Assembly (NCBI GenBank): GCA_018398765.1
Contig: JAHBMJ010000001.1
Location: 174,629-238,628 of the forward strand
Direction: 5' to 3'
DNA: 64,000 bases
Origin: Chromera velia
Taxonomy: Eukaryota; Sar; Chromeraceae
In this document: piece after piece, positions 249-45,585 of the stretch
How the letters are laid out: every line of letters starts with the position of its first letter
How positions within the stretch are numbered: the stretch's first letter is position 1
The notes under the pieces: generated by a model
Databases searched by the model: none
What the model saw: the letters and a program-made list of their open reading frames with translations, nothing else
Told to the model about the DNA's origin: nothing
Made by a program: the position numbers and the translations under genes

Positions 249-3200
249 TTTGACATTCTGTGCCTGTCGCCTTCGAGCCGTCGCTGGTGGTGTTGCTCCA
301 CCCATTCTTGCACGCGCACGAGAAAGAGCCGGCAGAGTTTGTGCAAAGCGCGTGATCGGAGTCGCAATCGTGTGCACCGTTGCACTCGTTGACATCTGCA
401 GACCACACAAACAGAGACAAAGTGAGTGTTGCTTAGACTTTCGGAGTTTGATGACCCGGATGAAGACGCAAAAGCAGTAGAGACTTGCAACATGCAAACT
501 GCTTGAGAAAGGAAGGAAGAGGGAAAACACATATGAGTGAAGAGGCACTTCATTGCTTCTGACCAGTGCAAGTGTGGCCGTCCCCACTCCAGCCCTCATT
601 GCACGCGCACTCGTAGCGTCCTCCCGACGGTGACAGATTTGTGCAGGTGGCCTTTGTAGAGCACGTGTGCTTCGGGTCGTTTTCGTCGCATTCGTTCAGG
701 TCTGCAGCCAGCAATTGAGACACAGCGACAAACAGATGAAAACAACGAGAACGGCTGTAAGCGTAAGCCCATTGAAGTATGCGTGGCAGAAAAGAATTTG
801 CTGCGTTCAAGAATGGAGCAGAGAACTAGAGGCTGCCAGGCAATTAACGAAGACACATCACCGCTCGCTTTGGAATGTCCTTCTTGACTCACCCGTGCAC
901 ACAGAAAGCTCCCCCGTACAGGTCCACCCCTCTTCTATTTGACCATTGTGGCACCCGTCTCCGGCATCTGTGTCTCCGTCGTCGCAGTTTTCATCTCCGA
1001 CGATCTTGCCGTCTCCGTGAATTTCTGCACGATTTCAATTAATTGAGCTCAACCACGGCTTCACTATTTGCATGGACGACATTTATCAATCCTTTGGCTT
1101 CCGGAGGTCCGGCCTCGGGTACTGACGAAGTGTTTTGGGAGACGCACGCAAGAGTGCCTGCCGAAGCGACTAAGTGAAAAATATCTTGCATGATGTGGAA
1201 CGAGAGTAGGATCCGAAAGGGGAGAAAAGCAGGTGAGCATAGGTGAAAAACGAAAATTGTATGCAGCCTAAAAGAATGGAGGGCTGCCGTACCGCTCGGT
1301 CCCTTTCCTCACTTGCACATGAGCTGCATGCTGACGTACCGTTGCAATCCTCGCAGACGACTGGACATTCCCACCCGTCTTCAATCAGTCCGTCTTGAGA
1401 GCAGCCGTCTCTGTTCACTCTGTTCCTGTCGGCACACTCCTCCCCTCCCACCAACAGACAGTCGTCCAGGTTGGCTGATGGACAGACAGAAGGACCGACA
1501 GACGGACAGTGAGATTGCATGAAAAATGGTGAACAGACATCAAAAGGGGATGCGGGGATGGGGAAGAGGGGAATCATTTCATTTACTTCTCAACTCGATC
1601 CAAAAGGCTGAGTGGTGGAAAATTAATCTGAAACGAAAGACCTGAAAAAAAAGCAAGCAAGAAAGAAAGAGAGACAGACAGACAGACAGAAAGAGAGAGA
1701 GAGAGAACGAAAGAAAGGCCGGATTAGAATGTCCGGTAAAAAAGCACACTCAAAAACGAAGGAAGCAAGCAAGCACGGAGGGAAGGAAAACTCACGAGTG
1801 CATTTGCCTCCCGCTGGAGGGCAAATCCATGCTGTGTCGTGTTCCTTCTGGCACACAGCGTCGCACCCGTCGTTAGGCTCTGTCCCTCCGTCGTCGCATG
1901 TTTCGTCGCCTCTAATCAGGAGATCGCCACAAACGGCTGCATACACGACAGTGGGAGTGGCAAAAAAATTTCCATGGGATAGAAATTTCAGTCTCTCGTT
2001 TGCTTGTCAAGGTCAGCACGACATGCCCCCGTCTGAAGATGCAACGGATAGCTGTGGACGGGATCCATTCTTCGCATGCTTACACCGTCAATCCATGCAC
2101 ATAGGGAAGAAGAGAAAGCTGTGACCAGCACGGAAAGTTTCCCGGGTGTCAAGAAATCGACTTCACACGAACATGCGAAAAACAGGTTTCTGCTTCTATA
2201 ATCATTGCATACATCATGCAGTGACTAACGTGTACAGTCACTCCCTGGAGTCGGACAGTCCCATCCTGTTTCCGTTTTCCCCTCAGAGCTGCACCCGTCT
2301 CCGTTTTGTGCGTTCCCGTCGTCGCATTCCTCGTCTCCCCGAACCAAACCATCACCGATGATCTCTGCGCACAGATGGAAAAAGACGAAGACAGAGACCG
2401 ATCAAAAAAGAAAAAGACAGAGACAGATCAAAAAAGACAAAGACAGAGACAGATCAAAAGAGCTAGACAGGGACAGAGCCAGATCGAGACAGCATGCATG
2501 TACGGAGAGCTGGTATGTTCATCGAAGGGATTCATCTCTTCAAGCATGTGGAACTGCCTAGCTGCCTTGAGCGAAGAGTCCGCATGTCCTCGTCAACTCA
2601 TGCATGCATGCCGTGACTGACCTTCACACTCTGTCCCTGGATCTGTGGGTGAGTGGAAGCCCTCGGGGCATTCGCAGAGGAACGCCGCGTCCGTGTTGGT
2701 GCACGTCGCCAGTCCGACACATCCGTGGGTTCCCTCTGTGCACTCGTTGATGTCTGCAGGGAATTAAGCAGGCGGACACATTAATGCAAGCGCGTGCAGT
2801 GCTAGGGTCTCTCTTTCCTTGTCCTTTCTGCCTAGACAGAATAAACAGCAATGTCGACACTCTTCTGAAGAAAGAACTCGGGATGACCCTGGAGAGAAGC
2901 TGCTTACTTGAAGTCAGAGCTAAGTGAGAGATGGATAGAGCGATTCAGGACCGACCATTGCAATCCCCAGGTCCACTCGGACAGGTGTACCCGTCCTCCA
3001 CCTTCCCGTCCGAACTGCAGCCATCACCATTCTCTGTGTTGCTGTCGTCGCATTCCTCGTCTCCCACAACTTTGCCGTCTCCGATGATCTCTGCATGATA
3101 GGCAAAAAAAGGGCCAATTTAAGAAGGAAGAAAACGTCGCTTCAGGCAACAACGACACTTGCCTTCAGAAGAGCCATGGTGTCAGCCAAAGCAATGTCGA

Positions 3201-6200: not shown

Positions 6201-6897
6201 TTTACATTCTTAAAGTTTCAAGTCACTCAACCCTTCTTACAGACGATCGTCAGGCATCACTGGAAGAGCTCGTGAACAACAACCACATACGGGCGTACCT
6301 TCACACAGTTGACAGTGGGTTGAGCAGCTCCATCCCGTCTCGACTCTGTTTGTTGTACTGCACCCGTCTCCGTTCTCTCTGTTCCCGTCTGTGCACTCCT
6401 CTTCTCCCACCACCAGGCAGTCATCCCAAACGGCTGCATGCGTTGGTGAATGGAATGGAGAGAGCCGACATGCATCATTGAGATCGCTAGAGAATGAAAA
6501 ACAGCTTCGGCCAGGACACAAAAAGATGCAGCTAGGGCACTTTCATCGCTTTTTTACAGGAGACAAAGATGAAAGAGGTCGAGCAAAAGGGGAGGCCAGA
6601 AGAGAACAGAAACAGCTGACGTTCGCATACGCCCCCTTGAGGCATGGGAAACAAACCCTAGTTTCGGATGTTTGATGGCATTGCTGCCTGGCGATTATGA
6701 TTATTTGCATGCATGGGCACGGATTGACCCATACACGTGGTGCAAGAGAAAAATCTACTCACGTGAGCACTCGCCGCCGTCCTGAGGACACGTCCATCCC
6801 GTCTCCGTCTGACAGGTACTGGAGCACCCGTCTCCACTTTCGGAGTCCCCGTCGTCGCAGGTTTCCGTTCCGTGTCGCTCCCCGTTTCCGCAAATGG
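249..6897 (-). other. Giant gene exons E91-E109: type I-II-III triplets, then the last modules seen
   Basis: Exons 5' to 3' are 6763-6897 (I), 6299-6433 (II), 5935-6069 (III), 5584-5718 (I), 5178-5312 (II), 4874-5020 (III, 147 bases), 4577-4711 (I), 4199-4333 (II), 3899-4033 (III), 3582-3716 (I), 3266-3400 (II), 2956-3090 (III), 2622-2753 ([15 protein letters not shown]), 2230-2364 (III), 1796-1936 (I, 141 bases), 1340-1474 (II), 893-1024 (III'132), 564-701 (EGF138) and 249-395 (EGF150-like, 147 bases). The first twelve form four perfect I-II-III triplets. Bases 1-248 hold no module I can see and are read as intron. Confidence 0.82.
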
Positions 6898-9800
6898 CTG
6901 CAGTCAAAGACAGAAATGGGGAGAGCTCAAGACACGAGAGTCGCGAACAATAGAACAAAACAACAAACTCCAAATGTTCGAATCCAATCCGCGAAGGTCG
7001 CCATTGCAGTGCACCACGACCAGCCCCCGAAATGACGCCCCCCATTCAATCCAGATCACTGCACTGTTCGTCTTGATCCTCACCTGAGCACGAGATGCCG
7101 TCTCCCTGCCACCCGTCATTGCAGGTGCAACTGAAGCCTCCGTCTGAGTTGGTGCATGTCGCTTGAGCGTTGCAGTTGTGAGTACTGTCCGAGCACTCGT
7201 CAATGTCTGCGCGAAAGGAGAGGAGCATATAGGCCGACAGTTGAGGTTCACCTATGCACTCCTTGCCTGTATCCATGCGTGTCTTGTCTCAACAGGAAAA
7301 ACATTCCATCCAGACAGGACTTCATCCCGGAGAGAAAGACCCACATCCAAGATCATGTGCGGAATGTGTATAGTCGGAATTTGTAAATCACCAATGTATC
7401 CTATCCTAAGAAGCCTCCAATGACAAAGGAACTTTTCGACTCCCCAAACACAAACTTACCACTGCATGCCCCCCCGCCGACAGGACAGGTGTAGCCGTCC
7501 TCCACCTGCCCATCAGAATCGCAGCCGTCTCCGCTCTGAGTGTTGCTGTCGTCGCACTCTTCGTCTCCGGCCACGTCGCCGTCACCGACAACGGCTGCAT
7601 TCTCACAAACAGAACTCAAGTTTGTGCATAATAAGGTCACAGGTTTGTTCAATCGGTCACAGGATTCTCGTACAGAGAAAGGGGGAACATTAGTGGTAAA
7701 AAGAAATCAACAAACAGGGATAGACACTCGTTATCAAAGGGAGACTGCTTCGATGCGTATTGGAACAAGCCACTGAAGTGACAGTTCCCCCGTGTACTGA
7801 CTTTGACATTCTGTGCCTGTCGCCTTCGAGCCGTCGGTGGTGGTGTCGCTCCACCCATTCTTGCACGCGCACGAGAACGACCCCATGGAGTTCGTGCACA
7901 CGGCATTCGGGACGTCGCAGTTGTGACCGCCCCCTTGGCATTCGTTGATGTCTGCACATGCAACCATGCAAATAGATACACCCACATACAAAGACGCACA
8001 CACGCCGACATGATAAGAAATCCAACGAGATGGAGAACATTCATCCTGGATCTGCAATCGGGGATCGCCGCAACATTTGATCGGCTAGCGAAACGGAAAT
8101 ACACACTAATGCGCTAATGCGCTTAAGAACGGGAGGCCCTCCTCACTGCACCCGACTACACTACCCACCAGTGCACGTGTAGCCATCCCCTGAGTACCCT
8201 CTATTGCAGTTGCAGTCGTAGCGTCCTCCTAACGGAGGGAGATTTGTGCAGGTGGCCTGGGCAGAGCACGTGTGCTTCGGGTCGTTTTCGTCGCACTCGT
8301 TCAGGTCTGCAGGCAGACAAGAAGGTAGGCATGAAGTGGACATCAAGATTCTTTTGCATCCACATACACGGGGGGGTGAAGAAGGGGACTCCAGGCAGAA
8401 AGGAGACGAGAAGACTCCAAGCCATAGACCAACAACGCTCTCGATTGCAATGAATCCACCACCCCAGCTACCTGTGCACACAGAAGGCTCCCCCGTGCAC
8501 GTCCACCCATCCTCCACTCGGCCACCAGAGCACCCGTCTCCAGCATCTGTGTCTCCGTCGTCGCACTCTTCGTCGCCTTGCAGATCGCCGTCTCCGTGCA
8601 CTACTGCAAAAGCAAAGGCAGGCAGATGAGTTTCTCATCTTTCATAGTGGAGTCTGCCTAGACTCAGACAGACACTCCATAAGAATGCAGTTTTCATACA
8701 ACAGGTGCACACTAAGATGCCAAGAACGCAGGAGGAGAACCCCCCAGGAAGGCAGGCAACGCAGCTGCTCCCATATGAACCTTTGCAGTCGTCTCCTGAC
8801 CTGAGCACGAGATGCCATCTCCCTGCCAGCCCTGGTTGCAGGCGCAACTGAAGCCTCCGTCTGAGTTGGTGCACGTCGCTTGAGCGTTGCAGTTGTGGGA
8901 ATTGTCGGCGCACTCGTCGACATCTGCAAGCATGCACAGCCGAAAATCTCACGAACGTGTAGACACACAACACCAAGGTGGCGTTGATCTCATATTAACC
9001 ACCGATAAAAAATAGGAAGATGAAGCTCAATAGCCGGCACACTTATGCACAGTCACCCCTCACCTGTGCAAGCCCCAGCGGTCACCGGGCACACCCATCC
9101 GTCTTCTTCCTTTCCGTCAGAATCGCATCCGTCTCCGCTCTGAGTGTTGCCGTCGTCGCACTCTTCGTCTCCGGCCACCACATCGTCTCCCACAACAGCT
9201 GCATTGTTGTAAAGAGGCAGGAAAAGAGGGCAAATGCTGTGTGGTTGGCAGGGAGACAGAAACTCGGAAAAAGAAGAGACGGGCTTTTTTCTTTTCTGTT
9301 GTTGTACCATGGACCCACTTTGACATTCTGTGCCCGTCGCCTTCGAGCCGTCGCTTGTGGTGTCGCTCCACCCGTTCTTGCATGCGCACGAGAACGACCC
9401 CATGGAGTTTGTGCACACGGCATTCCGGACGTCGCAGTTGTGACCGCCCCCTTGGCACTCGTTGACGTCTGCAGGGAAGCGAATGTGCCAAAAGAATTCA
9501 AAAGAGACGGTCGATGCACTTTTGAGAAGATGCCACAAGGACGCCTGCACGAGTTGATACTGTCTCTTTGCGCATGCATTGAACTGGAAGCAAGGAACGT
9601 GACACACAGAGGAAGAATGGAACGCCAACTCGGACAAGCAACCCTGCTACACAGCGTTCGTTTATCAGCCGCACTCACCTGTGCAGACATGGCCGTCTCC
9701 ACTCCAACCCTCATTGCACGCGCACTCGTAGCGTCCTCCCGACGGTGACAGATTTGTGCAGGTAGCCTGGGCAGAACACGTGTGCTTCGGGTCGTTTTCG

Positions 9801-12800
9801 TCGCACTCGTTCAGGTCTGCAGGCAGACAAGCACACAACAAAAGACAATCAAGATTCCTATGCATCCACATAAACTGACTGCAGCCGATAAAGGAGAAGT
9901 CAGTATGGCCCAAAACGGAGTCTTTGGGCGAGAAAGAAAAGACAGAGACAGAAAATGCAGGTTCAGGTCTCACGGAGAGATACGCTTGTACAAAGTGACA
10001 GAAGCAAGAGTCCAGCGGGCATGCAGGCGGGGGCAATCGACTCATGAGGAGAAAGATATTGCAGGAAAGAGCGCAGATTCACGAGAATGCACAAAAGAGA
10101 AAATCTTCACATGCTCACCCGTGCACACAGAAGGCTCCCCCGTGCACGTCCACCCCTCTTCTATTTGACCGTTGTTGCACCCGTCTCCGGCATCTGTGTC
10201 TCCGTCGTCGCAATTTTCGTCTCCGACGATATTTCCGTCTCCATTTACCTCTGCAAGTCCATACACAGAGAGGCAGATGTCACACACCTGTTACATACAT
10301 CCACACACAGACTGAGGGACGAATGCACAAACACACACACACGTATACACACATTTCTACAAATGCACTTACGTACAGACAGTCGACGTTGCCTAAACAA
10401 TCGAATCTTCAAACCGGCAGTCACAGGCCATTTACAAGCTTGAAACATCCATAAGTGATCTGAACGTGGTGTCCTCTCCTCTGACCATTGCAAGGAGAGC
10501 AAATCTGCGGACAGGCCCATCCAGTTTCGATCTGATTTGTCGCACTGCACCCGTCCGAGTTCTGTCTGTTCGCGTCTTCGCATTCCTCCGGGGGCACGAG
10601 CATGCAGTCGTCCAAAATCGCTGCACACACAGATCGAGGGGAGCAATGTGACAAGAGAAAAAATCAAATTCTACATGTGTCAGTGGATGTAATGCGGAAA
10701 TGTACTAATTTCAGAGGAACCAAGAAATGGAAGAGAGCCAGATCATTCTGAGTTCTGTGCTTCAGACTGACGGCTGCATTCGCCCCCACTTTGAGGGCAA
10801 GAGTATCCCGTCTCCGTCTGACAGGTACTGGAGCACCCGTCTCCGCTTTCTGCGTCCCCGTCGTCGCAGGTCTCTGTGCCGTGTCGCGCTCTGTCTCCAC
10901 ACACAGCTGCAAACAGAGACGCGAATCCAAAGTTGTGGAAGGGTCACCCACGTAGTACCTCTGCTCTGTAACAACAAGGAATCCGTCAGAATTCAATTCC
11001 TACCTAACTGTTTGTCTGCCTGTCGGTCTATCTGTCACTCTGTCTACGACAAAAGTTCGCCGCAAAAACCATAATTAAAAATGTCTGAGCGCCTGATTTT
11101 CTTCATGACTTCTCTGCATGGCCCGAAAAAAGAAAAACAGTTTCAGAGACACTGCGTGTGCTACAGCAAAGAGCGAAAGATGACCAGCATAGGAGTGATT
11201 GTTTTACGTGTGCAAAAGATGTGTGACATAAAAGAGGCAGGCTCTGCATTTAAAGCACGAACTCAGTAAATTGAAACGGAGAGTAATCAATCACATGCTG
11301 CATACGAACACAGAAAAGCATAGCAATCAATAATCAGGAAAAGGGTCGTCCTTTATCGAGCACCTTCAAGTGCCCAACACCACCCGAAGAAAGGGTGCGG
11401 AAGACTCACGTTCGCACGGGGCGCCTTCCTGAGCACACGACCACCCAGGCTCTGTCTGACAGGAACTTGAGCATCCGTCGCCACTCTCGGTGTCCCCGTC
11501 GTCGCAGGTCTCGAGACCCAAACGTTTCCCGTCACCACATATAGCTGCAATAGAGAAAGGGCGTCTGTCTCATTCAGCAACTCATCAAACTTGCATGCAT
11601 AGACAAGCAAAACCTGCATGGTGACGAGCAAAAAATCAGCAGAGAATAAATATTCTTACCAATCCAAATATCCTTTCCCCCCATTCTATCGAGGAACATC
11701 CATGCGAAGTCCAAAATTGAATTTTGTACGTGTCCTCTGACCTGTGCAAGAAGCCCCGACAACGTTGCACTCCCAGCCGTCCTCGATGTTTCCCTCAGAG
11801 TCGCACCCGTCGCCGCTCTGAGAGTTCCCATCGTCGCACTCTTCGTCTCCGACAATCTCACCGTCTCCGATGATTTCTGCAACAGACAACGAGGAGAAGG
11901 AGGGAGCGGAATACGAGCATGGGACTCACAACTCGGCAGAAGCGCAAATATAGCCAAAGCCAGAGGAAGTAACATAAGGGCAACGCCCATCCACCACCCC
12001 CCAATAAAACACCAGAGAAGCCCACAGATGAATTCATTATTTGTGGATTCTCACATCTATTCAGACAAATGTAACACACCGGTGCAAGGGGTCCCTCTGG
12101 TAACCCACCCATGGGCGAAAAACTCTGATTGACTTACCTTGACAGGGATCGCAAATAGTCGGGCACTCCCATCCGTCTTCGATGGTGTTCAGAGCGCTGC
12201 ACCCGTCTCCGTCGTCGCTGTTTCTGTCGGCGCACCTCTCTGTACCCACCAGCAGGCAATCGTCCCAGGTCGCTGCAAGAGGGTGCACAGAAAAGCGATG
12301 TAAATTCTACAATCTCCAGGGGGCTCTGCGACTGCGTCTCGCTAGTCGCTAAAGACAGCACCGGCGACTGGCGGAAAGATAGCGAGAGGGAGGGGGAGCG
12401 GTGAGGGAAGTGAAGTTCAAATGTGAGAGAAGCAAACTCACGTGAACACTCTCCACCGTCCTGAGGACACGTCCATCCCGTCTCCGTCTGACAGGAGGAT
12501 GAGCACCCGTCTCCGCCTTCTGTATCGCCGTCATCGCAGGTTTCTGTTCCGAGACGATCCCCGTCACCACAGACGGCTGCAGGGGGTTGATCAAAACAAC
12601 ACAATAGGAGAGGTCAAGTGCCTTCAAGACACACCTGGAAATGAATACATGAAGCGATACACAAGCGTGCATTGCGAATCCTGCATCACGGCATAGTCGT
12701 TCTCAGGGGATAATAGAAATCAGGGACACCTGTCAGATGCATAATTCTGAGTCTCGATTTCTTGGCCGAGTCACTCATCGAACGACGAGCTGGCCTCCAC

Positions 12801-30800: not shown

Positions 30801-33800
30801 GACGTCGCAGTTGTGACCGCCCCCTTGGCACTCGTTGATGTCTGCAGGCAAATATGCAACACAGATTTGAGAAAGTCGACACTTCTTTTTGCAAGAAAGA
30901 AACGGGTTCACTCTAGGAATGCATTTCGGCTTGGAAATAGTGAAAGGCAAAGGGGCGGGGGATACATGGAACTATTCTCTTGCTCTCCCGAGCTGCGGAC
31001 AAATATGCTTGCAACCATAATGTCACCATCCGCACTCACCTGTGCAAACATGGCCGTCTCCACTCCAGCCCTCATTGCACGCGCACTCGTAGCGTCCTGC
31101 CGACGGCGACAGATTTGTGCAGGTGGCCTTTGTAGAACACGTGTGCTTTGGGTCGTTTTCGTCGCACTCGTTCAGGTCTGCAGACAGGAAAGTGGGCAGA
31201 GAATGATTTGCCGATACAAGCATGCCTTTCGAAAATACAGAGGCTCTCGATCGTATGCTGGGAGATGAATCATGAGGGAGGGAGAAGTCCTTCCAGCAGC
31301 TGATGATTCCTCCTACACATTTCTTCCTGCGTCTCTGAAGCACCCCTGTGTCTAGTCACTTTCTCGCTAGCTCAATGACTCCCTGCCTTCCTCCCACCCT
31401 CCCTGAGGGGGCCGCTCACTCACTCACCTGTGCACACGGAGGCCGTCTCTCCGGGCGGCACTGTGCACGTCCACCCGTCCTCCACCTGACCCCCATAGCA
31501 CCCGTCTCCCGGATTTGTGTTGCCGTCGTCGCACTCTTCGTCTCCCAACACGTGACCGTCATCGGGAGTCGCTGCACTCGTTCATTCAACCCAGCAGCAC
31601 ACACAGACAGAAAGGTGGATAGATGGAAAGACACGCAGGCAGACGAAGAGAGCTACTTGAAAACAATAGACTCTTATTGAGTGCTGAAAGGCAAAAGCAA
31701 AGATGAGTCACTATCCTCTCACAGAGACGCCCCACACGAAAAGATTCTCGCCCACTGACTGACGCGAGCACTCGCCGCCATTCTGAGGGCAGGTCCATCC
31801 ACGCGAGCCCTCGCCGCCATTCTGAGGGCAGGTCCATCCAGGTTCAGTCCTGCAGCTGCTGGAGCACCCGTCTCCGTTGTCGGTGTTGCCATCGTCGCAG
31901 GTCTCAGGGCCCTTTCTCTCTCGGTCTCCGCACACAGCTGCGACAAAGGAAGACAAAAGAATGGCGTGGGTACTCCAAGGAAGTGTCCCATGGAGGTTGG
32001 ATGAGACAAAGCAAAGACAAATCAAAGTGGAGGGAAGGTGAATATTTGCCCTCAAAAGCATCATCCTGCCTGTAAACAGACGGAAAGGGGCAGCCACAAG
32101 CTCCCTATTTATCCACATAATGTTCCTCTGCATGCCACCGCGAGTCCTCCCCAATGGTCAAACTCACCTGTACAAGAGACGCCGTCTCCTTGCCAGCCGT
32201 GGTTGCAGGTGCAGGTGAAGCCTCCATTTGTGTTTTGGCACGCGGCGCTGGCATGGCAGTTGTCAGAGCTGTCGCTGCACTCGTTGATGTCTGAAAACAC
32301 ATGAATGACACATGTTGTTGGGGGTGCTGTCATGAGAGGCCAGTCAATCTGAATGACATCAAGCAGCGAACCTCTAACAGATGCACGTTGAAGCAATACA
32401 GAGTGTACCAGTGCATGCCAAAGGAAGGTAGAGAAATGCGCTGCGAGGATGAAATCGAACGGCCTTTACACGCACGATCAATCGCGTGCATTTCATCAAT
32501 ACACACCTGAGCATGCGCCCCCTCCAGTCGGACAGGTATAGCCGTCCTCCACGTTGCCGTCAGAGTCGCAGCCGTCTCCGCTCTGAGTGTTGCCGTCGTC
32601 GCACTCTTCGTCTCCGGCCACAACGCCGTCACCGACAACGGCTGCATTCTCACGAACAGAACACACGTCCGTGCATTACAAGATTAATTTATTCATAATT
32701 GTGCATTACAAGGAAACACTACTCACAATTAGAGGGAGTGAGTTTCAACGAAAACATTTTTGGAACAGCTCGCGCCCTTCTGTTTCTTCAATTTACTGAC
32801 TTTGACACTCTGTGCCTGTCGCCTTGGAGCCGTCGGTGGTGGTGTCGCTCCACCCGTTCTTGCACGCGCACGAGAACGACCCCATGGAGTTTGTGCACAC
32901 GGCGTTCGGGACGTCGCAGTTGTGACCGCCCCCTTGGCATTCGTTGACATCTGCAGGCCCGTGAATACATACAGAGAGTCAGGGGAGGACCTCGTGTATG
33001 CGGAATAAAGAAAACAAAATAGAACGAAAGAAGGGGAGAGATAGAGAGAGAGCGAAAGAGGGAGACAGGAATAGTGAGGGGGCGGGGGAACAGAGAGAAA
33101 GAAATGCACCCATCACATCCAATATAACACTGCAACATCGAAATCCAACAACCGTGCGATCGTATAATGGAAACCCCCACCCGTGCATGTGTGTCCATCT
33201 CCAGAGTAGCCGGTGTTGCACGCGCACTCGTAGCGTCCTCCCGACGGCGACAGATTTGTGCAGGTGGCCTTTGTAGAGCACGTGTGCTTCGGGTCGTTGT
33301 CGTCGCACTCGTTCAGGTCTGCGGGCAGGAAGAGGGTCCATAGGGGCAGAGGAGTGAGAAGAAAGTGAGGGAAGCTGCTTGAATGTGGCGCCTCCCAGTA
33401 GCCCTCTTAGCTCGGGAAGAAATGCCTCAGAGTCTCACAACAAACAGAGTCTCACGGATCGACACCCAGATTGACTATCAAAGGAGCAGTGTTGATGGAA
33501 TGCTATCCTGTCTTTGGATAAGGCATTCCTGTTGTGTTTCCTGATTCATCCGTCTCCTCTCTCTCCGATCGCTCCACAAACCTTTTTGAATCCCTTCTCC
33601 TTTCCTCGGCTCCTTCCCCATTTACTCTCCCACTCACCTGTGCACACGGAGGCCGTCTCTCCAGGCGGCACTGTGCACGTCCACCCGTCCTCCACCTGAC
33701 CCCCATAGCACCCGTCTCCCGGATCTGTGTTGCCGTCGTCGCACTCTTCGTCTCCTAACACGTGACCGTCATCGGGAGTCGCTGCACGCACTCAAGAAAC

Positions 33801-36324
33801 ATTCACAAACAGACGGAATGACAGACGGACGGACACGCAGATAGACGGGTGCAGACACTCGGAGACGACAGACTCTCATTGAGTGCCTACAGAAAGCCCC
33901 ACACATCCTCACACACGAAGTAATCCCCACCGACTGACTGACGCGAGCACTCGCCGCCATTCTGAGGGCAGGTCCATCCAGGTTCAGTCCTGCAGCTGCT
34001 GGAGCACCCGTCTCCGTTGTCGGTGTTGCCATCGTCGCAGGTCTCAGGGCCTCTCATCTTCGAGTCCCCACACACGGCTGCAACAAGTATAAGTATGCGT
34101 ACGGAAGAAAGGAAGACGAAAGAATGGGGTAGGCTGCTGATGCGAACAGGAGAGAATGAAAGGAGCAGCTGCCATGATTGCAACTTGCGCTTGTCCCACA
34201 TTCACAGGATTCCAAGTGAAATAAAAAAGCCTCCTAGTAAGAGCAAGCTTCACATCGTAATATCAAGACAGAAAGCAGAGAGAAAACGTATCCCTTCCCT
34301 CAAGCGCCAAACCATCTCCCCGGTTTTTCCACTCACGTGTACACGAGACGCCGTCTCCCTGCCACCCGTTTTTGCAGGTGCAAGTGAAGCCCCCGTCTGT
34401 GTTCTCGCACCTCGCTTTTTTATGACAGTTGTCCGAGTTGTCGCTGCACTCGTCGATGTCTGCAAACAAACAAAGAAACAACGATGCATGTATGTCACCA
34501 CAACACAGGCAAGAAAAAGCAGTGAGAGACAAGCTAGCCTCCGTAAAATCAAGTGACGGAAGCCAAATGCACATTGAAACCGACGAGACAGTAGGCATCT
34601 GATCTGCCCATGCAATAGTGGAGTGTTGTGCAGCAAACAAACTGCATGTCGACGAAAGAAAAAAAAAAGAGCGAAAGTTTGACGTCGCAGCACAGACCCC
34701 CCACCTGAGCATGCGCCCCCGCCGACAGGGCAGGTGTAGCCGTCCTCCACCTGCCCATCAGAATCACAGCCGTCTCCGCTCTGAGTGTTGCCGTCGTCGC
34801 ACTCTTCGTCTCCGGCCACAACGCCGTCACCAACCACAGCTGCACACATGCAATCAATGCAAGTAAAAATCAATTGCCCTTATCTGCCTCGGTACACCAT
34901 CCTGGCCACGTCAATCAATCTGTAAAGTCTCTTTGAGTCGGGATGCCTTGTCCGAAACCCAGAGGTGACTCACTTTGACATTCTGTGCCTGTCGCCTTCG
35001 AGCCGTCGGTGGTGGTGTCGCTCCACCCGTTCTTGCACGCGCACGAGAACGACCCCATGGAGTTTGTGCACACGGCATTCGGGACGTCGCAGTTGTGACC
35101 GCCCCCTTGGCATTCGTTGATGTCTGCAGGCAACAAAACATGAAGCATGAAAGAAAGGGCGACAGCAAGAAGAAGAGAGGAAGACCCAGAAACATTGCAG
35201 GGGCAGTAGGCGGATCAGAAGTCAACAGCGGTTGCGAGTACAAGTCGAGGCCTGATCGTTGAGAACGGTTTCATGCCGTCATTGAGTAACCACTCTACCA
35301 AGATGAGCACAAGAATGTTAAGTACTCTTGCAGGTAAAAGACAACAACACACCCGTGCATGTGTGTCCATCTCCAGAATAGCCGGTGTTGCACGCGCACT
35401 CGTAGCGTCCTCCAGACGGCGACAGATTTGTGCAGGTGGCCTTCGTAGAGCACGTGTGCTTCGGGTCGTTTTCATCGCACTCATTCAGGTCTGCAGGTAG
35501 GCAGGCAGGAAATGATAAGGACGTGGGGGGAGCTGGCTGAATTGGCATCTCCCAGTAGCCTCGATCGAGAAGGCCCGATGAAGAAGGTAAGTCAGAAAGC
35601 AAAAAGAATGTCTGAACTAACAAAAAGGTTTCATGACTCACCAGTGCACACAGAAGGTTCCCCCGTACAGGTCCATCCGTCCTCAATTTCACCGTCATGA
35701 CAACCGTCTCCCGGATGTGAGTCCCCGTCGTCGCACTGTTCCTGCCCGACCATCTCCCCGTCTCCGTGGATCTCTGCAAACCAAACGAGAATTGAGGATT
35801 AAAAACGAAACTCAGGTGACTGGAGCATGGTAATGTGGCACAACAAAACAGGACAGTCACAGTACAGACCTTCGCAGGGCGTGCACACAGCCGGGCACCT
35901 CCACCCTGTCTCGATGAGGTTCTCCGCACTACACCCGTCTCCATCGTTTCTGTTTTGGTCCTCGCACTTCTCGGGTCCGACGAGGACGCAATCGTCCCAC
36001 GTGGCTGCATGCAGAGAGAGAGAGAGAGAGACAGATGAAGAAGTCATGAGAGAGAACAATCAGGCAGGCAGGCAGGCAGGCAGGCATGCAGGCAGGCAGG
36101 CAGGCAGAATAAGGACGGAAATTCACTCAAAGATTTATGATATGGTATCATGCCCTCGATCGTTTCTCCATATGGGTGCATACAGCACAGGCACTCGAGA
36201 TCTTCCTAACGCACTCAGTGCAGCTTTCACTCATTCATGGTGACTGTAAGGAGGGCAAGAGAGAGAGAACAAAACTCAATACAACCAGACGTCAAAAACG
36301 AAGCTACGCACGCGACCACACACA

Positions 36325-36361
<37 letters not shown>

Positions 36362-39300
36362 GAACTCACGATGGCATTCCCCGCCCACATGAGGACACGC
36401 CCATCCCGTCTCCGTCTCACAGGAGGATGAGCACCCGTCTCCGCTCTGGGTGTCACCATCATCACACTCCTCATCACCGACACGGTGTCCGTCACCGCAA
36501 ATCGCTGCAGACAAAGAAAGCAGTGGAGAGAAAGGGGAATGGAGCATCCGAATCAGTTGGAAAAAACAATGTAATCCCATAAGGGACGGTCAGTGCGCAC
36601 ACAGTCACGTTGCGCAGTCACGTCATCACCAAACCGACAACTTACATGAACAGGCGCCCCCTGCAACGGGACAGCTCCATCCCGTCTCCTGCTGGCACGT
36701 GCTTGAGCACCCGTCTCCGTCCTCTTTGTTGCCGTCGTCACACTGCTCAGAGCCCAGACGGACATCATCTCCACAAACGGCTGCAATTAGAGAAAGAAGA
36801 AAGGACAAGAGGAAGAATGCCTCGACAAGATAGCGGGGCAAGTCACTGAAAGGGCAACCATAGAATGGAGGGAAAAAGAACTAGGGGGACTAGGGGGGGC
36901 GAAAAGAGACTCATCACTGAATACGCAGGCATGCAACAAAGGGATCGATGCAGCATCGAAACTTTTCAAAAATTCGGGAGACCCACCTCTTTCCTTCCTT
37001 CGCCTTCCTTTCTTGCTTGTTTTCTTCCTTCATTCCCGACTTTCCATGCCTCTACACAGATGGCGACGGACCTTCGCATGGCGAGCAGACAGTCGGGCAT
37101 CTCCAGCCGGGCTCGATGGTGTGCGATGCAGTGCAGCCGTCTCCATCAATGCTGTTGCCGTCCGTGCACTTCTCCGGACCCACCAGGAGGCAGTCGTTCA
37201 TGTCGGCTGAAAGGAAAGCAAGCACACACCCGACAATCAATGCATACATACATACATACATGCAGATTCTAAAGTCGGAGGGTGGGATGACAAAGATAGT
37301 TAGCCTGATTTCAAAACAATGATGCTGTAGCTCCACTGTCCCCCCCCCATCCCCACTGACGTTGACAATCGCAGTCGAGGCACTTGTAGTCGACCACCCC
37401 GTACTTGTACGTGTACCGACAGGGATCTCCCGCAATCGTGTTGGCCATAGGGAGGACGCACTCGTTCTTGCCGTCACACGTCTCCACGGCATAGTCAGTC
37501 ACATCCAGGTGGCAGGTGATGTCTGTGAGGTGCCCCCCCCGGTAGAAAGGACACGTGACTCTGTCATTGCGGCCGTACCACGCCTCCGTCACAGCAATCA
37601 CCTGGCCAGGGGGACACGTGAGGGGGTTCCAGCACTCACCCGTCGTGGAGCCGCACTGGTTCTGGTGGGAGGGGTGGGTCTCGCAGATGGTCGTCTCCTT
37701 CTCCGTGACTGCAGGAGGTGGGAAGAGAAAAGGGGGTTGGCGGTGTCAGTCAGCTGGGTGAGATTGAAGTTCAGACAATCAGCAGGATGGTCAGAGAAGA
37801 CGTAACCACCGACCAGACCCAAACCGGCTGACTGACTGACATGCACAGTCGCTGTCCGAAAGAGGGCACTCCCACCCAGGTTCTCTTTTGCAGTTGCTCG
37901 AACACCCATCGCCGCTTTCGGTGTTGTGGTCGTCGCACTCTTCGGACCCCAAACGCTTTCCGTCTCCGCACCCGGCTGCAAACATGCAGATGCATTCAGT
38001 GAGTCAGTGCAGTAAAGAAAAATACTTTCATTGTCTGACTTCAACAAGAAACACCCAACCTGTGAAGAACCTGTGAAGGAGTTCACGTGTTTGTTGAGAA
38101 CAAGAGAAACGTCGTTCAACGATGCTTATTTCCCTCAGGCATACAATAGTCTTTTGCCTTATTCACTCCCTCACCCACCCCTTCACGTTGACCGACTCAC
38201 GTTCACAAGGTCCACAGAGAGTGGGGCAGGTCCATCCGGGTTCCAAGAGGTTCTTCTCAGAGCACCCGTCTCCTGCCTCGAGGTTCCCGTCAGAACATTC
38301 TTCGGACCCCACAAGCATGCAGTCGGTCCTTATCGCTGCATTCATTCATTCGTTCGTTCATTCATTTATTCATGCACGTTTGAGTCCAGACGGAATGTTC
38401 CGAATCCTCGCCGTCGCTGTTACGAAGAGAGATAACGCAAATCGTTTTGTATTTAAGGGCAAGTCGATCCTGCGGATCTCACGGTATATGATCAGAGAAA
38501 GGTGGGGATTTTTGTATATTCAAAGAGCACTTGTGGACAGACAGCACGTGCATGTATTTCAGCTCACGTTCGCACTCGCCTCCCCCCTCAGGGCAGGTCC
38601 ATCCCGTCTCCACCTCACACGAGCTGGAGCACCCGTCTCCGTCATGTCGATTCCCGTCGTCGCATCCCTCGTTGGAAGTTCGAACCTCGTCTCCACACAC
38701 GGCTGCAATTAAGCAACCGCACAAAACAAACACATGCATACATACAGGCGTGCACAGATATGCCAACAGAAAGGAACGGGCGGATGTGAAGGAGCGTAGC
38801 GTAAGAAGGCTTCGTTGTCTTTTTCGCAAAAGGGAAAATGTCAACAAGTACTACAGGCCAGAAGGGTAAAGAATCCGTATCTTCTTCTACGACTGACTGT
38901 GGCAGACGGAGCTGGAAAGCGGGTTGATGTTCCCGGAGGGACACACGCCAATGTCAAGAATGCCGAAGTTAGAGGAGGCCTCGAATTTTATTTTTCGAAT
39001 TCCTCTGAAGTCAGAATTCCCTGAGAAATCCAACAGATGAACTCCTTTTCCCTCAGGGTCTCTGTTCGCTTTCCACAGTCTCTGCTCTGCGACTTTTCTG
39101 CCATCTGCGCCGTATGCAATGATCTTTCTGCCCAGTGCGTTGAACACCCGAGCAGAGAGCAGGACAACGTCTCTGGAGAATTCGAGAGTGATCCCCCTCT
39201 GCCTCCTCTGGCTGAACAGATTCCGCAACCACTGGAGCAGCCAGAGGAAAAACAAACGACCGATCAGCAGTTTCCTCTTCTCTGCCAACTCTGTCCAGAG

Positions 39301-42300
39301 CAACCGCCTCGACCCCGAGTTGTCCTCTTCCAGGTGCTCCAGCGTGCTGGAAGGGACAGCCATTATCATGCACCCTCTATCGATGTTCACTCCCTCATAA
39401 TCCTTCCGGCACCCCCACCCTGTCCGGAAATCATTCAGAAGTTCAGGGGGGTTACCAGTGTCCACCAAAGCGACTGAGTCGGAATGTGCCTGAGCCTCGA
39501 GGACGACGTTCAATCCGTGGGAAGTGAGGGACCCGATCACGGCTGCGTTGGCACAAGTGTCGGGGAGGGAGAAGACCACTGGGCAGGAGACGGCAGTCTG
39601 GCCGTTGAGTGCGGGTGTGCAGACCCAGCCAGGCTCCACGACTCCATCAGCACAGCCGTCTCCGGAGACGTCGTTATGGTCTGTGCAGGTGCCGTCTCCC
39701 TCTGCATGCAGTCAAAGATGCATGGTGAATGGATCAGAAATGGATCAGCCAAGTATGGAAGCAGATGTGGATCAGAGTTCTGGTCGATTCCTACTTCCAC
39801 GACCGTTCGCTTGGACCACAGATTCATGAAAAAATTTTGAGACAGAAATACTGACCGGCCTCTCTAAAGGTTGACACACTGAATGTGGAGGCATTTCCTT
39901 TCTCCTCTTTCACTCTGTTCTTCCTCTTTCTCTGCCAACCCCAGCCACCCCGCCAATGACTAGCTGGACACCCACCCACCCGCCCCCGCGCACCCTATGC
40001 AGAGCAGAGAGAAAGAAGATTCAAAAGGTGAACGGACGTACGTGTGCAGGGTCCCCCAGAAGAGGGGCAGACCCATCCAGGCTCGACCTGCATGTCAACG
40101 GAGCACCCATCAAAGTTCCTAAGGTTACCGTCATCGCAATCCTCGCCCTCGTCCACACGCCCGTCGCCAGGCTCACCTGCAAGAAGGGCGCGCATCGTTG
40201 CATGGACTCAGTGAATGTAATTGATGGCCGATAAAGAGGAGTCACGAGAAAACAACTGAATATGCAGGGAAAGAACGAAAACGGCTGCCAGCTAGAGAGG
40301 GGAGACAGAGGCAAAGAGCTTTCGACGGAGAGCCTCGAGGAGAAAGGGTGTGCATTCAGAGACCAAGAATGGGAGTTGAGAACCGACCAGGGGGCCAGCC
40401 GTGTGCGCAGAAGGTAAGTGCCTCGATGGCAACCTCTCCTTTGATATACAGAGCCAGTTTCTCATTCAAGTAGACAGGGGACTCAGAAGCGAAGTGGACC
40501 TGCACTTCTTCCCGTCTCTCCCCCGCGTTGAGTGTGACGATCGGTTCGGTGTCTTTGTCGTCGATTCTCATGCTGACGCTCATCTCTCCTCTGTGCCCTG
40601 CAAGGAGCTTCATAGAGGACAGGTACACGGAGGTGGGGGGATCTTCTGCCTCACGAATAAGGTGAACACTCCCGCCCTCTGCTGCCGGCCCTCCCGCTGT
40701 ATCTGGCACATACGCAACTGCGCCTGCCGCACACGCTCCTTGGTTTGCCCCCCCTGCACACGAGCAGAAGCCCCCGCCCGTCTCTGCAGTATGCCACACC
40801 ACAGGAAGCGTCCCCTCAGGCTGCGTCGTGTTGTGCGCCCCCTCGACTTTGAAAGGCATGGAAAAGATATCAAATTCCGACCACTTGGCCCTGTGTGCAA
40901 GGTCAGACATCTTAATTGTCTTGCAGAGCGGTTGAGGACTGCAGAGGGAGAGCTCCTCCAGGCCCGAATGGTCCAGAGCAGACCGAGGAAAACAGATATC
41001 AAGGACGGTGTGGACCTCGAGAGCATCTGGAAACAGGGAAGTCGTGCGGTGAGTGCGCCCCTTTCCTGCGACTTTCGTATCCTCCTTCAGTCGTCCGTTC
41101 TCCTCGTATGTGCGCACCTCCACCTCCTCACTCAAATCCACCCCCCAAAAAACCATTCCCACAAGGAACACACTCGAGTCGTTCTCTCCGACCATCTGTC
41201 TCTCAATGCGCACACAGAGGCCATCTCCTGTTGGCCATGCTCCTGTTCCCTTCCCTGCGAACCGAATCATGCGTTTTGTTTCTGAAGATGACGACACAGG
41301 GTAGGCGTCTCTGGCCTCGAGGAAGAAAGCAGACCTCCAGGATCCCTCCCAGTCGTACACACGAAATCGGAAGCGTCTCCGGAGACCCTGATGGAAGCTG
41401 AGCCTCTCCTTCAGGTGGAATCGGGAGAAAGATAGACGCTCACAGGTCGAGTCAGGAGAGTCCTCACTGGCGTCACCCGAGGGGATGGACTCCTCTACTG
41501 TTTCCGATTCTGCAATTCAATTCAGTACACATGAAGTGGATCGATGGTTGTTTTCCTCTTTTTTCTCACGATGGCGACAACGACTCTCTCGCTCTTGTCT
41601 CGTTCTTGTTCTTTCTGCAGGCAACAAAAACGCCCTTACGGGCACCTCCATGTACGAAAATGCTTCTTCACGTTCACATCAAAGCCGGCCTCAACACTTC
41701 AAAACAACAGCAACATCGAACACAGAAAGAGAAACACCCTTAATTTAATTCCTAAAGAGACCCCACTCACCTGCAGAGTAGGTGCAGATAGCGAGGTCAT
41801 CCACCGCTCCCTCACCAGGAAAGCACAAATCGACAGGCCGCCAGGTTACCTTCGGCCCTCTCCACCACCGTTCCCATAAAAGAACATTTTTAGACACAGA
41901 CCCAAATGTACCCTCCCCGTCAAGAGAGGCAGTCAGAAGTCCCCACCCATTTCGCACCTCAGCCCGATGGTGCGGATCATGCACAGACACCAGGCTCACA
42001 GAATCGATGTAAGCCGAAACCCCCCCCGTGTTCCCCCCCCCCCCATGATGCTGAACACGCAAACACCCCCCTCCCGGATTATCCCCTTCCCCAGAGTTAG
42101 GAGAGGCGAGTATTGCCACTTGCCCCTGACCACAAACGGCCGGAGTTTCCGAACAAACTAAATGAGGGGCCGCGAGAGCATTGGCGCTCCCCCCCCCCGC
42201 GTCAGAGTCGAAAGCGCGGACAGCCGAAGGCGCCTGTCCACTTCCGTCTGCATTGAAAGGCAACGCGGACAATTGCCACTGCCTGTCCAACGCGTTTACG

Positions 42301-42980
42301 CTTGGCACCTCATCCCCGTCTGCTTTGTCTGAGAAGTCCACGACTTCGCATGTTGGTGTGAAGCTGCACAACTGAATTTCCTCCACACGCCCGCCCTCTT
42401 GAAAACAGATGTCGAAGGTCTTGCGTGCCGGAAGGCCCGGGCGTCCGATGAGCCGCGCCATAAGGAGATGCCGAAAGACACGCGCAAGGGGTCTTCGGAA
42501 GACCCCATCGCAGAGGATGCGTGCAAGTTTCTTCCAGAATACCTTCACAGTTGCTGAGCGAAGATACGCAATTCGAGGTCCCAGGGGCTGTCTGTGAATT
42601 GAAATTCGAAGACAGGAAGGCCCGCTCTCCTCTTCATTGTCATCATCATCCCAACACCCAATCTGATTATTCCCAATCACACGTACAGATCGCCTCCTGT
42701 TCTTTTCAACGTCCTCGTAAGGAAGCGCACTGAACGACACCTCGAAATTCGCTACTTGAATCCTTTGATTCGGATCGATAGAAGAAGAGGAGGGAAATTG
42801 GTCCAAAGGAATGGTCTCACAGACCAATCTTGTGTTTGCTTTTCTTCGTGCTCGAATCTTTGCACCAATTCTTTGCCAAAACCATTTCTTCCACCCTCCA
42901 GCAACTTCCGTTATTAGCAGCAAGGTCAGGCAAAGTCCCAACCAGCGGCAGGTCTTGAACTGCCAGCCGAAAGGCTTCAT
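249..42980 (-). CDS. Giant secreted modular protein (EGF / DUF4215 / SUEL lectin), 109 exons seen, 3' partial
   Basis: This is a spliced gene whose start codon is at 42980 and whose 3' end lies left of the window. I resolved 109 exons (E1 at 41771-42980 to E109 at 249-395) from acceptor AG, mostly TGCAG, and donor GT signals; they encode about 6,000 residues. E1 carries a signal peptide. All exons after E1 are multiples of three and start and end in phase 1. Modules are EGF-like (36 exons), DUF4215/Myxococcus-type cysteine-rich repeats (about 69) and two SUEL-type lectin domains. No transmembrane segment or kinase is seen, so a secreted matrix, wall or adhesive role is inferred from the families. 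Exon boundaries are seen in the sequence and the frame is continuous throughout; expression and exact splicing are unverified. An annotation pipeline may have split it into several models. Confidence 0.88.
2378..2494. repeat. Imperfect AGACAGAGACAGATCAAAA tandem repeat
   Basis: A purine-rich run of about five degenerate copies of a 20- to 24-base unit lies in the intron between exons 2230-2364 and 2622-2753. It has no coding support. Confidence 0.75.
7084..12576 (-). other. Giant gene exons E75-E90
   Basis: Exons 5' to 3' are 12442-12576 (I), 12138-12272 (II), 11742-11876 (III), 11410-11544 (I), 10772-10906 (I), 10486-10620 (II), 10119-10250 (III'132), 9679-9816 (EGF138), 9319-9468 (EGF150), 9064-9198 (III), 8801-8923 (EGF123), 8472-8603 (III'132), 8169-8306 (EGF138), 7802-7951 (EGF150), 7460-7594 (III) and 7084-7206 (EGF123). 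The four exons 11410-12576 closely match the four exons 3582-4711, including an almost identical type II exon ([19 protein letters not shown]). Confidence 0.82.
13226..13324. repeat. 28-base tandem repeat in an intron
   Basis: About three and a half direct copies of a 28-base unit (starting AGACAGAAGCGGAAAGATCA) lie in the intron between 13207 and 13526. The copies are almost identical, so the expansion is probably recent. Confidence 0.9.
15070..15190. repeat. ATTC microsatellite with a duplicated exon-end fragment
   Basis: A run of CATT/ATTC tetranucleotides directly follows the acceptor of the EGF123 exon 14947-15069. After it, at about 15165-15190, the last bases of that exon and its acceptor recur (CACTCATTCACATCTGCA on the plus strand), without the rest of the exon. 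This adds a decoy acceptor in the intron. Confidence 0.8.
16101..16281. other. Assembly gap (181 N)
   Basis: A run of 181 N interrupts an EGF150 exon. The 72 bases before the gap (16029-16100) are identical to the 72 bases after it (16282-16353). If that overlap is merged, the exon is 108 + 42 = 150 bases, the normal EGF150 length. Confidence 0.97.
20289..26889 (-). other. Giant gene exons E38-E56
   Basis: Exons 5' to 3' are 26755-26889 (II), 26409-26543 (III), 26049-26183 (I), 25612-25746 (II), 25277-25408 (III'132), 24976-25113 (EGF138), 24653-24802 (EGF150), 24308-24442 (III), 23744-23866 (EGF123), 23460-23594 (I), 23124-23267 (III'144), 22796-22933 (EGF138, with a GC donor), 22451-22600 (EGF150), 22018-22152 (III), 21785-21907 (EGF123), 21361-21495 (I), 21041-21175 (II), 20665-20799 (III) and 20289-20423 (I). 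The same exon grammar as upstream is visible, with triplets I-II-III flanking the six-exon units. Confidence 0.83.
27206..27568 (-). other. Giant gene exon E37: SUEL / rhamnose-binding lectin-type domain 2
   Basis: This 363-base exon encodes a near copy of the E8 lectin domain: [46 protein letters not shown] and [16 protein letters not shown]. Unlike E8 it ends LPRGGECSR, the same end as a type I DUF4215 exon, which suggests exon-end conversion or an older fusion. It sits between a type I exon (27705-27839, ending GDCSC) and a type II exon (26755-26889), the same context as E8. Confidence 0.85.
27705..35490 (-). other. Giant gene exons E14-E36: four tandem copies of the six-exon unit
   Basis: Exons from 5' to 3' are 35353-35490 (EGF138), 34974-35123 (EGF150), 34705-34839 (III), 34337-34459 (EGF123), 33943-34077 (I), 33638-33781 (III'144), 33181-33318, 32801-32950, 32507-32641, 32168-32290, 31764-31937 (I with a 39-base duplication), 31428-31571 (III'144), 31040-31177, 30692-30841, 30399-30533, 30085-30207, 29792-29926, 29507-29650, 29154-29291, 28831-28980, 28538-28672, 28094-28216 and 27705-27839 (I). 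EGF138 starts [17 protein letters not shown]150 starts D[IV][12 protein letters not shown], and EGF123 ends in the [14 protein letters not shown] form. The calcium-binding EGF start is seen in all three kinds. Confidence 0.85.
35642..37206 (-). other. Giant gene exons E9-E13: DUF4215 types II, I, I, II, III'
   Basis: Exons are 37072-37206 (II), 36646-36780 (I), 36370-36504 (I), 35870-36004 (II) and 35642-35773 (III', 132 bases). Type III' lacks the first Cys ([10 protein letters not shown]), has GDGCHDG and ends EPSVCTG. Introns here carry CAGGCAGG (about 36060-36107), CA and GA (about 36316-36361) microsatellites. Confidence 0.78.
37361..37708 (-). other. Giant gene exon E8: SUEL / rhamnose-binding lectin-type domain 1
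   Basis: A single 348-base exon encodes a domain with the SUEL-lectin hallmarks: a first Cys near [10 protein letters not shown], then [35 protein letters not shown], and the terminal [16 protein letters not shown]. The YGR motif, the DPC motif and the final KY...Y.C pattern are typical of this family, which binds galactose or rhamnose in animal proteins. The domain ends in a short DCQ tail. Sugar binding is inferred from the family only. Confidence 0.85.
37841..38702 (-). other. Giant gene exons E5-E7: DUF4215 types I, II, I
   Basis: Exons are 38568-38702 (type I, CGDE...CDDGN...GDGCSSSC...[11 protein letters not shown]), 38201-38335 (type [13 protein letters not shown]...GDGC...CPTLCGPC) and 37841-37975 (type I, ending DSDCAC). 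Each is 135 bases with phase-1 ends. Type I keeps the CGDG start of the family. Type II replaces it with DDC-LLVG-like residues and ends in CPxxCxPC. Confidence 0.8.
38898..40176 (-). other. Giant gene exons E3-E4: first DUF4215 repeats and a globular domain
   Basis: E3 (40042-40176) is a DUF4215 repeat with GEDCDDGN and VEPGWVCP. E4 (38898-39701, 268 codons) opens with a short DUF4215-like piece ([17 protein letters not shown]). It continues with a globular domain that has a hydrophobic, arginine-rich middle and a beta-rich end ([17 protein letters not shown], then [12 protein letters not shown]). Fusion of a repeat and a globular domain in one exon is unlike the rest of the gene, where each module has its own exon. 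The globular domain is not recognised. Confidence 0.72.
40388..41509 (-). other. Giant gene exon E2: unassigned beta-type segments
   Basis: This 1122-base phase 1-1 exon encodes 374 codons without cysteine-rich repeats. It holds the signature LDICFP...LEELSLCSP, matching the two signatures in E1, and a second segment ending [13 protein letters not shown]. The repeated pattern of a Cys-Phe pair followed by an acidic turn and a hydrophobic-Cys strand suggests tandem copies of one domain family, possibly lectin-like jelly rolls. The family was not recognised. Confidence 0.75.
41771..42980 (-). other. Giant gene exon E1: signal peptide and two unassigned beta-type segments
   Basis: The first exon encodes 403 codons plus one base. 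Residues 1 to about 28 form a signal peptide: MKPFGWQFK, then the hydrophobic [17 protein letters not shown] basic stretch follows. The rest holds two similar segments, each ending in a recognisable signature, FDICF...VEEIQLCSF and VDLCFP...[10 protein letters not shown]. Alternating hydrophobic residues and glycine-rich loops suggest beta-sandwich domains, but I cannot assign a family. The donor is GTGAGT after TCTGCAG. The start was chosen because the signal peptide follows this ATG directly and no upstream in-frame extension is needed. Confidence 0.8.

Positions 42981-45548: not shown

Positions 45549-45585
<37 letters not shown>

Follow-up and report, generated by a model that had tools for sequence, protein, structure and literature searches.

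A giant gene of the photosynthetic alveolate Chromera velia was probably assembled by class 1-1 exon shuffling, that is, from module exons with phase-1 introns on both sides, and subsequently grew as cassettes of several exons were duplicated in frame. The gene lies on the minus strand of contig JAHBMJ010000001.1 (hereafter C1; assembly GCA_018398765.1, 177.8 Mb in 4040 contigs). Most of it falls within the 64,000-nucleotide (nt) stretch of DNA analyzed here, C1:174629-238628, which we refer to as the window.

The gene runs from an ATG at window position 42980 (C1:217608) to a stop codon at C1:165204, below the window, and spans 52.4 kb. The curated model comprises 124 complete predicted exons and one exon region interrupted by an assembly gap. 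No stop codon is found within the 124 exons, 119 of which are 1-1; the others are one 0-1 exon, one 1-0 exon and three 0-0 exons, the last of which ends in the stop. The predicted protein has about 7,917 amino acids (aa; gap exon left out) and 690 cysteines. Within the window there are 108 complete exons, and all except exon 1 (107/108) are both 1-1 and divisible by three. A preliminary description of this DNA had placed 109 exons between positions 249 and 42980, with every internal exon 1-1. Its count nearly matches the 108 complete exons and one gap-cut region of our model, and both ends fit, position 42980 being the ATG of a signal-peptide-like start and position 249 closing the last complete window exon at its 3' end. 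The uniform phase also holds for all 107 complete internal window exons. The gene does not end at the low edge of the window but extends 9.4 kb further with 16 more exons, and there its final introns are in phase 0.

Exons were predicted with a semi-Markov gene finder that uses scored splice sites, coding periodicity and reading frame and has no preference for intron phase. Motif searches supplied module-like stretches for a first round of training, the exons then predicted served for a second, and the finder was run over the minus strand of C1:140001-238628. In the uncurated array, from C1:214900 to C1:170300, 119 of 121 predicted exons are 1-1, the other two being located at a stretch of N, and the median intron length is 213.5 nt. 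In hand curation, exons 1, 2 and 4 and those at the C-terminal end were each defined as the longest open stretch with a suitable splice site, one exon end was reset, and four predicted exons were removed (one spurious, two at the N gap and one 30-nt partial copy). The gap exon was excluded from the phase counts, and weak short predictions above and below the gene were treated as noise.

On these predicted exons, a single gene over the whole span is favored, because a signal-peptide-like start and a GPS motif with a hydrophobic helix lie at its two ends, the exons are closely spaced, a cellulase-family neighbor is oriented divergently, and a paralog exists on contig C3172. The widest spacing between counted exons is 893 nt and holds the gap exon; the second widest is 568 nt. 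The earlier reading of one giant gene is thus upheld.

The predicted protein starts with a putative signal peptide, followed by N-terminal exons without an assigned family, about 114 EGF- and DUF4215-type modules together with two SUEL-lectin exons, a GPS motif, one transmembrane helix and a tail. By pattern, the module exons of the gene comprise 74 of DUF4215 type and 40 of EGF type, 35 of the latter in the window. The small exons had been described as encoding one EGF or DUF4215 module each; this stands at about one module per exon, with the correction that two 1-1 exons encode SUEL lectins. Pfam searches covered ten stretches, including 5 of the roughly 114 module exons, and the remaining modules were classed by cysteine and sequence pattern (classes L, Q and I, EGF; g, c, t and d, DUF4215-type). 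EGF_CA, EGF_3, DUF4215, SUEL_Lectin and GPS scored above cut-off in these stretches, while the single d-type exon tested reached 17.8 bits, below the DUF4215 cut-off of 27. Exons 1 and 2 had no Pfam match, and exon 4 gave only a weak match below cut-off. Single-sequence structure predictions for exons 4 and 2 had low mean predicted local distance difference test scores (42.6 and 45.1, respectively) and were not used.

The last exon contains a GPS motif (PF01825, E = 1.7e-5, 25.6 bits against a cut-off of 22.5) with the sequence CACSHLTDFS. By hydropathy, one strong hydrophobic helix follows, and then a 601-aa tail. From this arrangement we infer a single-pass surface protein whose disulphide modules and lectin domains would form a long stalk for adhesion or recognition, with possible autoproteolysis at the GPS site (HLT). 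An adhesion G-protein-coupled receptor would share the GPS motif, but was rejected in view of one hydrophobic helix instead of seven transmembrane helices. A polycystin-1-like protein was likewise rejected, as GPS is the sole Pfam match in the last exon, with no PLAT domain, and one hydrophobic helix does not make a multi-pass protein.

To assess the exon borders, intron-only motifs were applied in a leave-one-out scheme to 115 of the 119 1-1 exons (those of 110-180 nt; the four longer ones lie outside this range). The acceptor used in the model outscores every other AG in reach for 110 of the 115 exons, and the donor every other GT for 97. Among the 18 better-scoring alternative donors, 16 would shift the frame, so the donors lean partly on the reading frame. 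TGCAG is found at 106 of 123 acceptors, and the 123 donors include 65 GTG, 40 GTC (C at position +3) and 15 GTA. As a control, parts of six dynein loci (L039-L044) were analyzed with the same code and the splice model from the array, considering introns with homology on both sides. Eight of the 17 dynein introns are in phase 1, seven in phase 0 and two in phase 2, and in this small control 1 of 10 exons between two scored introns is 1-1, against 119 of 124 in the giant gene. Phase 1 is therefore common in the genome, yet 1-1 symmetry is not the rule.

The same organization is observed elsewhere in the genome. Nine other EGF/DUF4215 stretches, distributed over eight contigs, contain 193 module exons, of which 179 are 1-1. 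One of these stretches, C3795:40247-45982 (L022, L023), holds a DUF4215 array that lies partly in longer exons with mixed phases, where 1 of 10 module exons is 1-1; since the same code reads this array as mixed, the method does not force 1-1. The DUF4215 module is thus present in this genome in a symmetrical and in another form. Leaving out C3795, the count is 178 of 183 in eight stretches on seven contigs. EGF, Sushi and TSP1 are typical animal modules. In the stretches above, Sushi-like exons are 1-1 in eight of nine matches, the ninth lying in a 1896-nt exon read as 2-2, and the TSP1 (2/2), ACPAG-type (2/2) and discoidin-like (2/2) exons are 1-1 as well; these counts include the seed exons. 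The Sushi and TSP1 seeds were confirmed by Pfam, one Sushi seed just below cut-off, while ACPAG and discoidin-like are our own labels for exons with no Pfam match. Among 321 predicted exons that encode 25 or more residues, 190 of 208 cysteine-rich ones are 1-1, compared with 39 of 113 cysteine-poor ones, a group that may include many false predictions. Module types recur from gene to gene in varying combinations. The preliminary description had seen the hallmark of exon shuffling in this one gene; with unrelated modules (EGF, Sushi, TSP1 and others) 1-1 in other genes too, the case is stronger than was claimed.

The host had been taken for an alga, in agreement with 58 light-harvesting and 11 alveolin matches in the genome (the alveolin model also matches one bacterial control). 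One light-harvesting protein encoded here matches light-harvesting entries in the PDB, the best at 128 bits. Contamination by animal DNA is unlikely, because a light-harvesting locus (L014) has, by eye, the same TGCAG acceptor as the array. At least 8 of the 14 contigs with genome-wide GPS matches also carry listed EGF_CA or DUF4215 matches (L030, L034 and L035 are among the contigs with both). The combination of modules and GPS may represent the plan of a family of GPS-anchored mosaic surface proteins.

In the predicted exons, the borders of modules coincide with those of exons, phase 1 is found on both sides, unrelated families (EGF, DUF4215 and SUEL) share one gene, and modules are reused across genes, as in class 1-1 shuffled proteins. 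In the gene model, each module (EGF, DUF4215 or SUEL lectin) occupies a separate exon with a phase-1 intron on either side. Because the phase is the same on both sides, recombination inside introns can duplicate, add or remove one or more modules without a change of frame, and unequal recombination between introns would be the agent of cassette gain. Taking the dynein rate of 8/17, the chance of two phase-1 borders is about 0.22 per family, and about 0.0005 to 0.0001 for five or six families, a rough figure that assumes independent families and takes no account of their selection.

The order of exon classes along the gene consists of repeats of L-Q-g-I-c-t and d-g-c. Self-comparison of the gene gave 435 matches, the longest of 874 nt at 85% identity and spanning exons and introns, with identities of 75-98% among the 40 longest matches listed. 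Most module exons have close copies within the gene, spread as multi-exon cassettes. One exon (31764-31937, minus strand) contains an internal tandem duplication of 39 nt, or 13 residues; its length remains divisible by three and its phase 1-1.

The paralog at C3172:32003-62314 (L019-L021 and beyond) has about half as many module exons, and its C-terminal exon is 61% identical to that of the giant gene. Exon-wise alignment of 118 exons of the giant gene with 56 of the paralog places 55 pairs in order, 52 of them of the same class, and scores 8592, compared with a mean of 6247 (standard deviation 217, maximum 6967) for 100 shuffled orders. One 27-nt predicted exon of the paralog was dropped for this alignment, and two of its exons still appear as two predictions each. 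The 3' parts of the two genes are nearly colinear, and the surplus exons of the giant gene are located in the cassette region. Same-class pairs between the genes have a median identity of 66%, whereas nearest copies inside the giant gene have median identities of 96-100% for L, Q and t, 84-86% for c and g, 78% for I and 68% for d. Given 96-100% within the gene against 66% between the genes, the L-Q-t cassettes, at least, increased in number once the giant gene and its paralog had split. Judging from these sequence identities, the extra exons of the giant gene were most likely added after that split. At the level of predicted exons, this indicates a gain of about 60 exons relative to the paralog, as in-frame cassettes that left the frame unbroken. 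In the paralog, two SUEL-lectin matches fall in a single 693-nt 1-1 exon.

Several observations weigh against assembly by shuffling or reduce the force of the evidence for it. Every exon is predicted, with a splice model trained on the giant gene and a coding model trained partly on it. Before curation, the finder broke the long exons at the N- and C-terminal ends into too many pieces, with 122 of 138, 120 of 135 and 123 of 148 exons 1-1 under three settings, and the exact copy number is uncertain owing to the gap and the repeats. The dynein control covers few introns, some of them related by common descent, and phase 1 is frequent in the background, so that the number of exons overstates the evidence; nor is this number independent evidence, because module exons were copied within the gene as cassettes. 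Outside C3795, 5 of 183 module exons are not read as 1-1, and contig C3575, with two to five EGF modules in 7 of 17 module exons, shows that the pattern of one module per exon does not apply everywhere. The GPS motif of the giant gene is absent from the 14 genome-wide GPS matches at E values up to 0.001, and is on that account a weak member of its family. Among EGF exons of the 1-1 set, 118 of 166 find their best match in their own contig, compared with a mean of 34 when labels are shuffled, which makes within-gene duplication the main source of copies. In this best-match comparison of EGF exons, direct movement of a given exon between genes is not seen.

The predominance of matches within a contig fits a history of tandem duplication only, in which one ancestral exon with phase-1 borders was copied and the uniform phase was simply inherited; this account is silent on shuffling between genes. 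The cassettes that repeat inside the gene, introns included, and the near identity of the closest L, Q and t copies point the same way. However, EGF, DUF4215, SUEL, Sushi and TSP1 exons are not copies of one exon and are 1-1 nonetheless, and the module types are combined differently in different genes. Because duplication cannot explain why unrelated folds share one phase class, we take this sharing as evidence for shuffling and regard duplication as the sole process as rather unlikely. The exons could instead serve mainly to generate isoforms by skipping, with a diversity like that of Dscam. All 107 complete internal window exons are frame-neutral, and brown algal ROCO genes with one leucine-rich repeat (LRR) per exon do splice alternatively, according to part of the report on them (PMC11378527). 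Frame neutrality follows from the growth of the gene, though, and needs no role in splicing; it makes skipping possible without demonstrating it, and a primary role in isoform production appears quite unlikely.

It is also distinctly improbable that the system came from animals by horizontal transfer, introns included, rather than evolving in the alga. The module set (EGF, Sushi, TSP1, SUEL and GPS) is animal-like, and Chromera is described as coral-associated in the portion of the literature consulted (PMC5864212). On the other hand, the donors with C at +3 and the TGCAG acceptors of the array resemble the dynein sites, a comparison that uses the same splice model and is not independent, and the TGCAG acceptor is shared by the light-harvesting locus. 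Moreover, at least 150 scored EGF_CA matches over many contigs would require many transfers or a long local history. Misreading of several adjacent genes or pseudogenes as one, or an assembly that joined or collapsed repeats, is highly improbable. The N gap in the array, the strong similarity of the cassettes and a decayed partial exon at C1:172312-172283 speak for such errors. Against them stand 124 exons without a stop and with short introns, a single signal-peptide-like start at one end with a single strong hydrophobic helix at the other, and a colinear paralog on another contig. Class 1-1 shuffling followed by cassette duplication remains our preferred explanation of the giant gene, whose features are listed in Table 1.

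Table 1. Exons and cassettes of the giant gene, from the start codon downward (window coordinates unless prefixed C1)
Feature	Position	Strand	Description
Exon 1	41771..42980	-	1210 nt, 0-1; begins with the ATG and a signal-peptide-like stretch; domain without Pfam match
Exon 2	40388..41509	-	1122 nt, 1-1; no Pfam match; strands predicted at low confidence
Exon 3	40042..40176	-	DUF4215-type module, 1-1
Exon 4	38898..39701	-	804 nt, 1-1; DUF4215-like start, then domain without family
Three DUF4215-type exons (c, d, c)	37841..38702	-	All 1-1
SUEL (galactose/rhamnose-binding) lectin exon	37361..37708	-	348 nt, 1-1; PF02140, E = 1.1e-16
Five DUF4215-type exons (d c c d g)	35642..37206	-	All 1-1
Cassette L-Q-g-I-c-t (EGF, EGF, DUF4215, EGF, DUF4215, DUF4215)	33638..35490	-	Six 1-1 exons
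Cassette L-Q-g-I-c-t	31428..33318	-	Includes exon 31764-31937
Cassette L-Q-g-I-c-t	29507..31177	-	
Cassette L-Q-g-I-c	27705..29291	-	
Second SUEL-lectin exon	27206..27568	-	363 nt, 1-1; match C1:201868-202110, 61.7 bits
Five DUF4215-type exons (d g c d g)	25277..26889	-	
Cassette L-Q-g-I-c-t	23124..25113	-	
Cassette L-Q-g-I-c	21361..22933	-	
Five DUF4215-type exons (d g c d g)	19269..21175	-	
Cassette L-Q-g-I-c-t	16968..19062	-	
Cassette L-(Q)-g-I-c-t	14252..16803	-	Q region 15993-16395 holds 181 N
Cassette L-Q-g-I-c	12442..13970	-	
Six DUF4215-type exons (d g c c d g)	10119..12272	-	
Cassette L-Q-g-I-g	8460..9816	-	
Cassette L-Q-g-I-c	6763..8306	-	
Run of d-g-c type with one EGF exon (2622-2753)	893..6433	-	All 1-1; colinear with the paralog on C3172
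Last two complete window exons (L, Q; EGF)	249..701	-	1-1
Exons below the window	C1:174484-174627 to stop at C1:165204	-	C1:174484-174627 is the first of 12 more 1-1 exons; then four C-terminal exons joined by phase-0 introns

The assembly gap lies inside a Q-type EGF exon region that would accommodate one or two exons. The sequence on either side looks like parts of two similar exons, so the assembly may have collapsed copies at this point. Below the window by 2.3 kb, at C1:172283-172312, lies a 30-nt fragment that repeats the beginning of the following exon and has splice-like ends; it represents either a decayed exon or a recent partial duplication. The introns of the giant gene (28.7 kb) contain GCATGC 40 times, compared with 7.9 expected under an order-1 Markov model; the motif occurs 7 times in the exons. 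On the plus strand, window positions 43628-45667 hold a 679-aa open reading frame of a divergent GH5 cellulase-family protein (PF00150, E = 1.2e-27) with a signal-peptide-like start. It begins 648 nt upstream of the ATG of the giant gene and runs in the opposite direction, so that the upstream region is common to both.

According to passages of a review by Patthy (2021; PMC8001218), modular proteins made by exon shuffling are confined to animals, and evidence for them in other groups is practically absent; these passages also ask why shuffling is confined to animals and why class 1-1 is preferred. The giant gene resembles the metazoan class 1-1 proteins described there in the coincidence of domain and exon borders, in phase 1 on both sides, and in the extracellular or membrane mosaics that result. 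It differs from them in its photosynthetic alveolate host and in DUF4215 as its main module. Two other systems are comparable, as far as the portions of the reports consulted describe them. The LRR genes of Tetrahymena (PMC6564038), also an alveolate, have long arrays of frame-neutral exons of uniform phase that grew by duplication. Their exons are LRR units of exactly 90 bp in phase 2, whereas the Chromera gene has phase 1, array exons of at least 120 nt, several unrelated folds, and a secreted or membrane product. The brown algal ROCO genes (PMC11378527) likewise combine an algal host with one repeat per exon, uniform phase and shuffling; in contrast to the gene described here, they have 72-bp exons in phase 2, encode an LRR-ROC-COR GTPase, and have been shown to undergo alternative splicing.

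For Chromera itself, the main text of Woo et al. (2015; PMC4501334) mentions, in the parts consulted, expansions of SUSHI, EGF, TSP1 and vWA without data, and reports relatives of apicomplexan-type surface proteins with EGF, SUSHI and TSP1 in chromerids. This main text gave no match for 'exon shuffling' or 'DUF4215', its supplements lying outside the scope of the search, and the parts consulted say nothing on the intron phase of the expanded genes. Judged by title and the start of the abstract, none of the matches listed from the open literature (supplements again outside the scope) describes class 1-1 shuffling in an alveolate.

On the predicted exons, the giant gene and its relatives are an instance of a known mechanism in an unexpected place, a second case beside animals that involves five named families (EGF, DUF4215, SUEL, Sushi and TSP1). 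Because an alveolate provides this second case, the question of why phase 1 is preferred, whether through sites of intron insertion, secretion signals or chance in one ancestor, becomes testable. Photosynthetic alveolates are separated from animals by more than a billion years. We hold the evidence to be evenly balanced on the broader proposition that an alveolate evolved its own genome-wide class 1-1 shuffling for extracellular proteins, comprising EGF, DUF4215, SUEL, Sushi, TSP1 and more. If this is true, animal multicellularity would not be needed for such shuffling, and the preference for phase 1 would have arisen twice. The finding also bears on how surface proteins of the apicomplexan type were first assembled.

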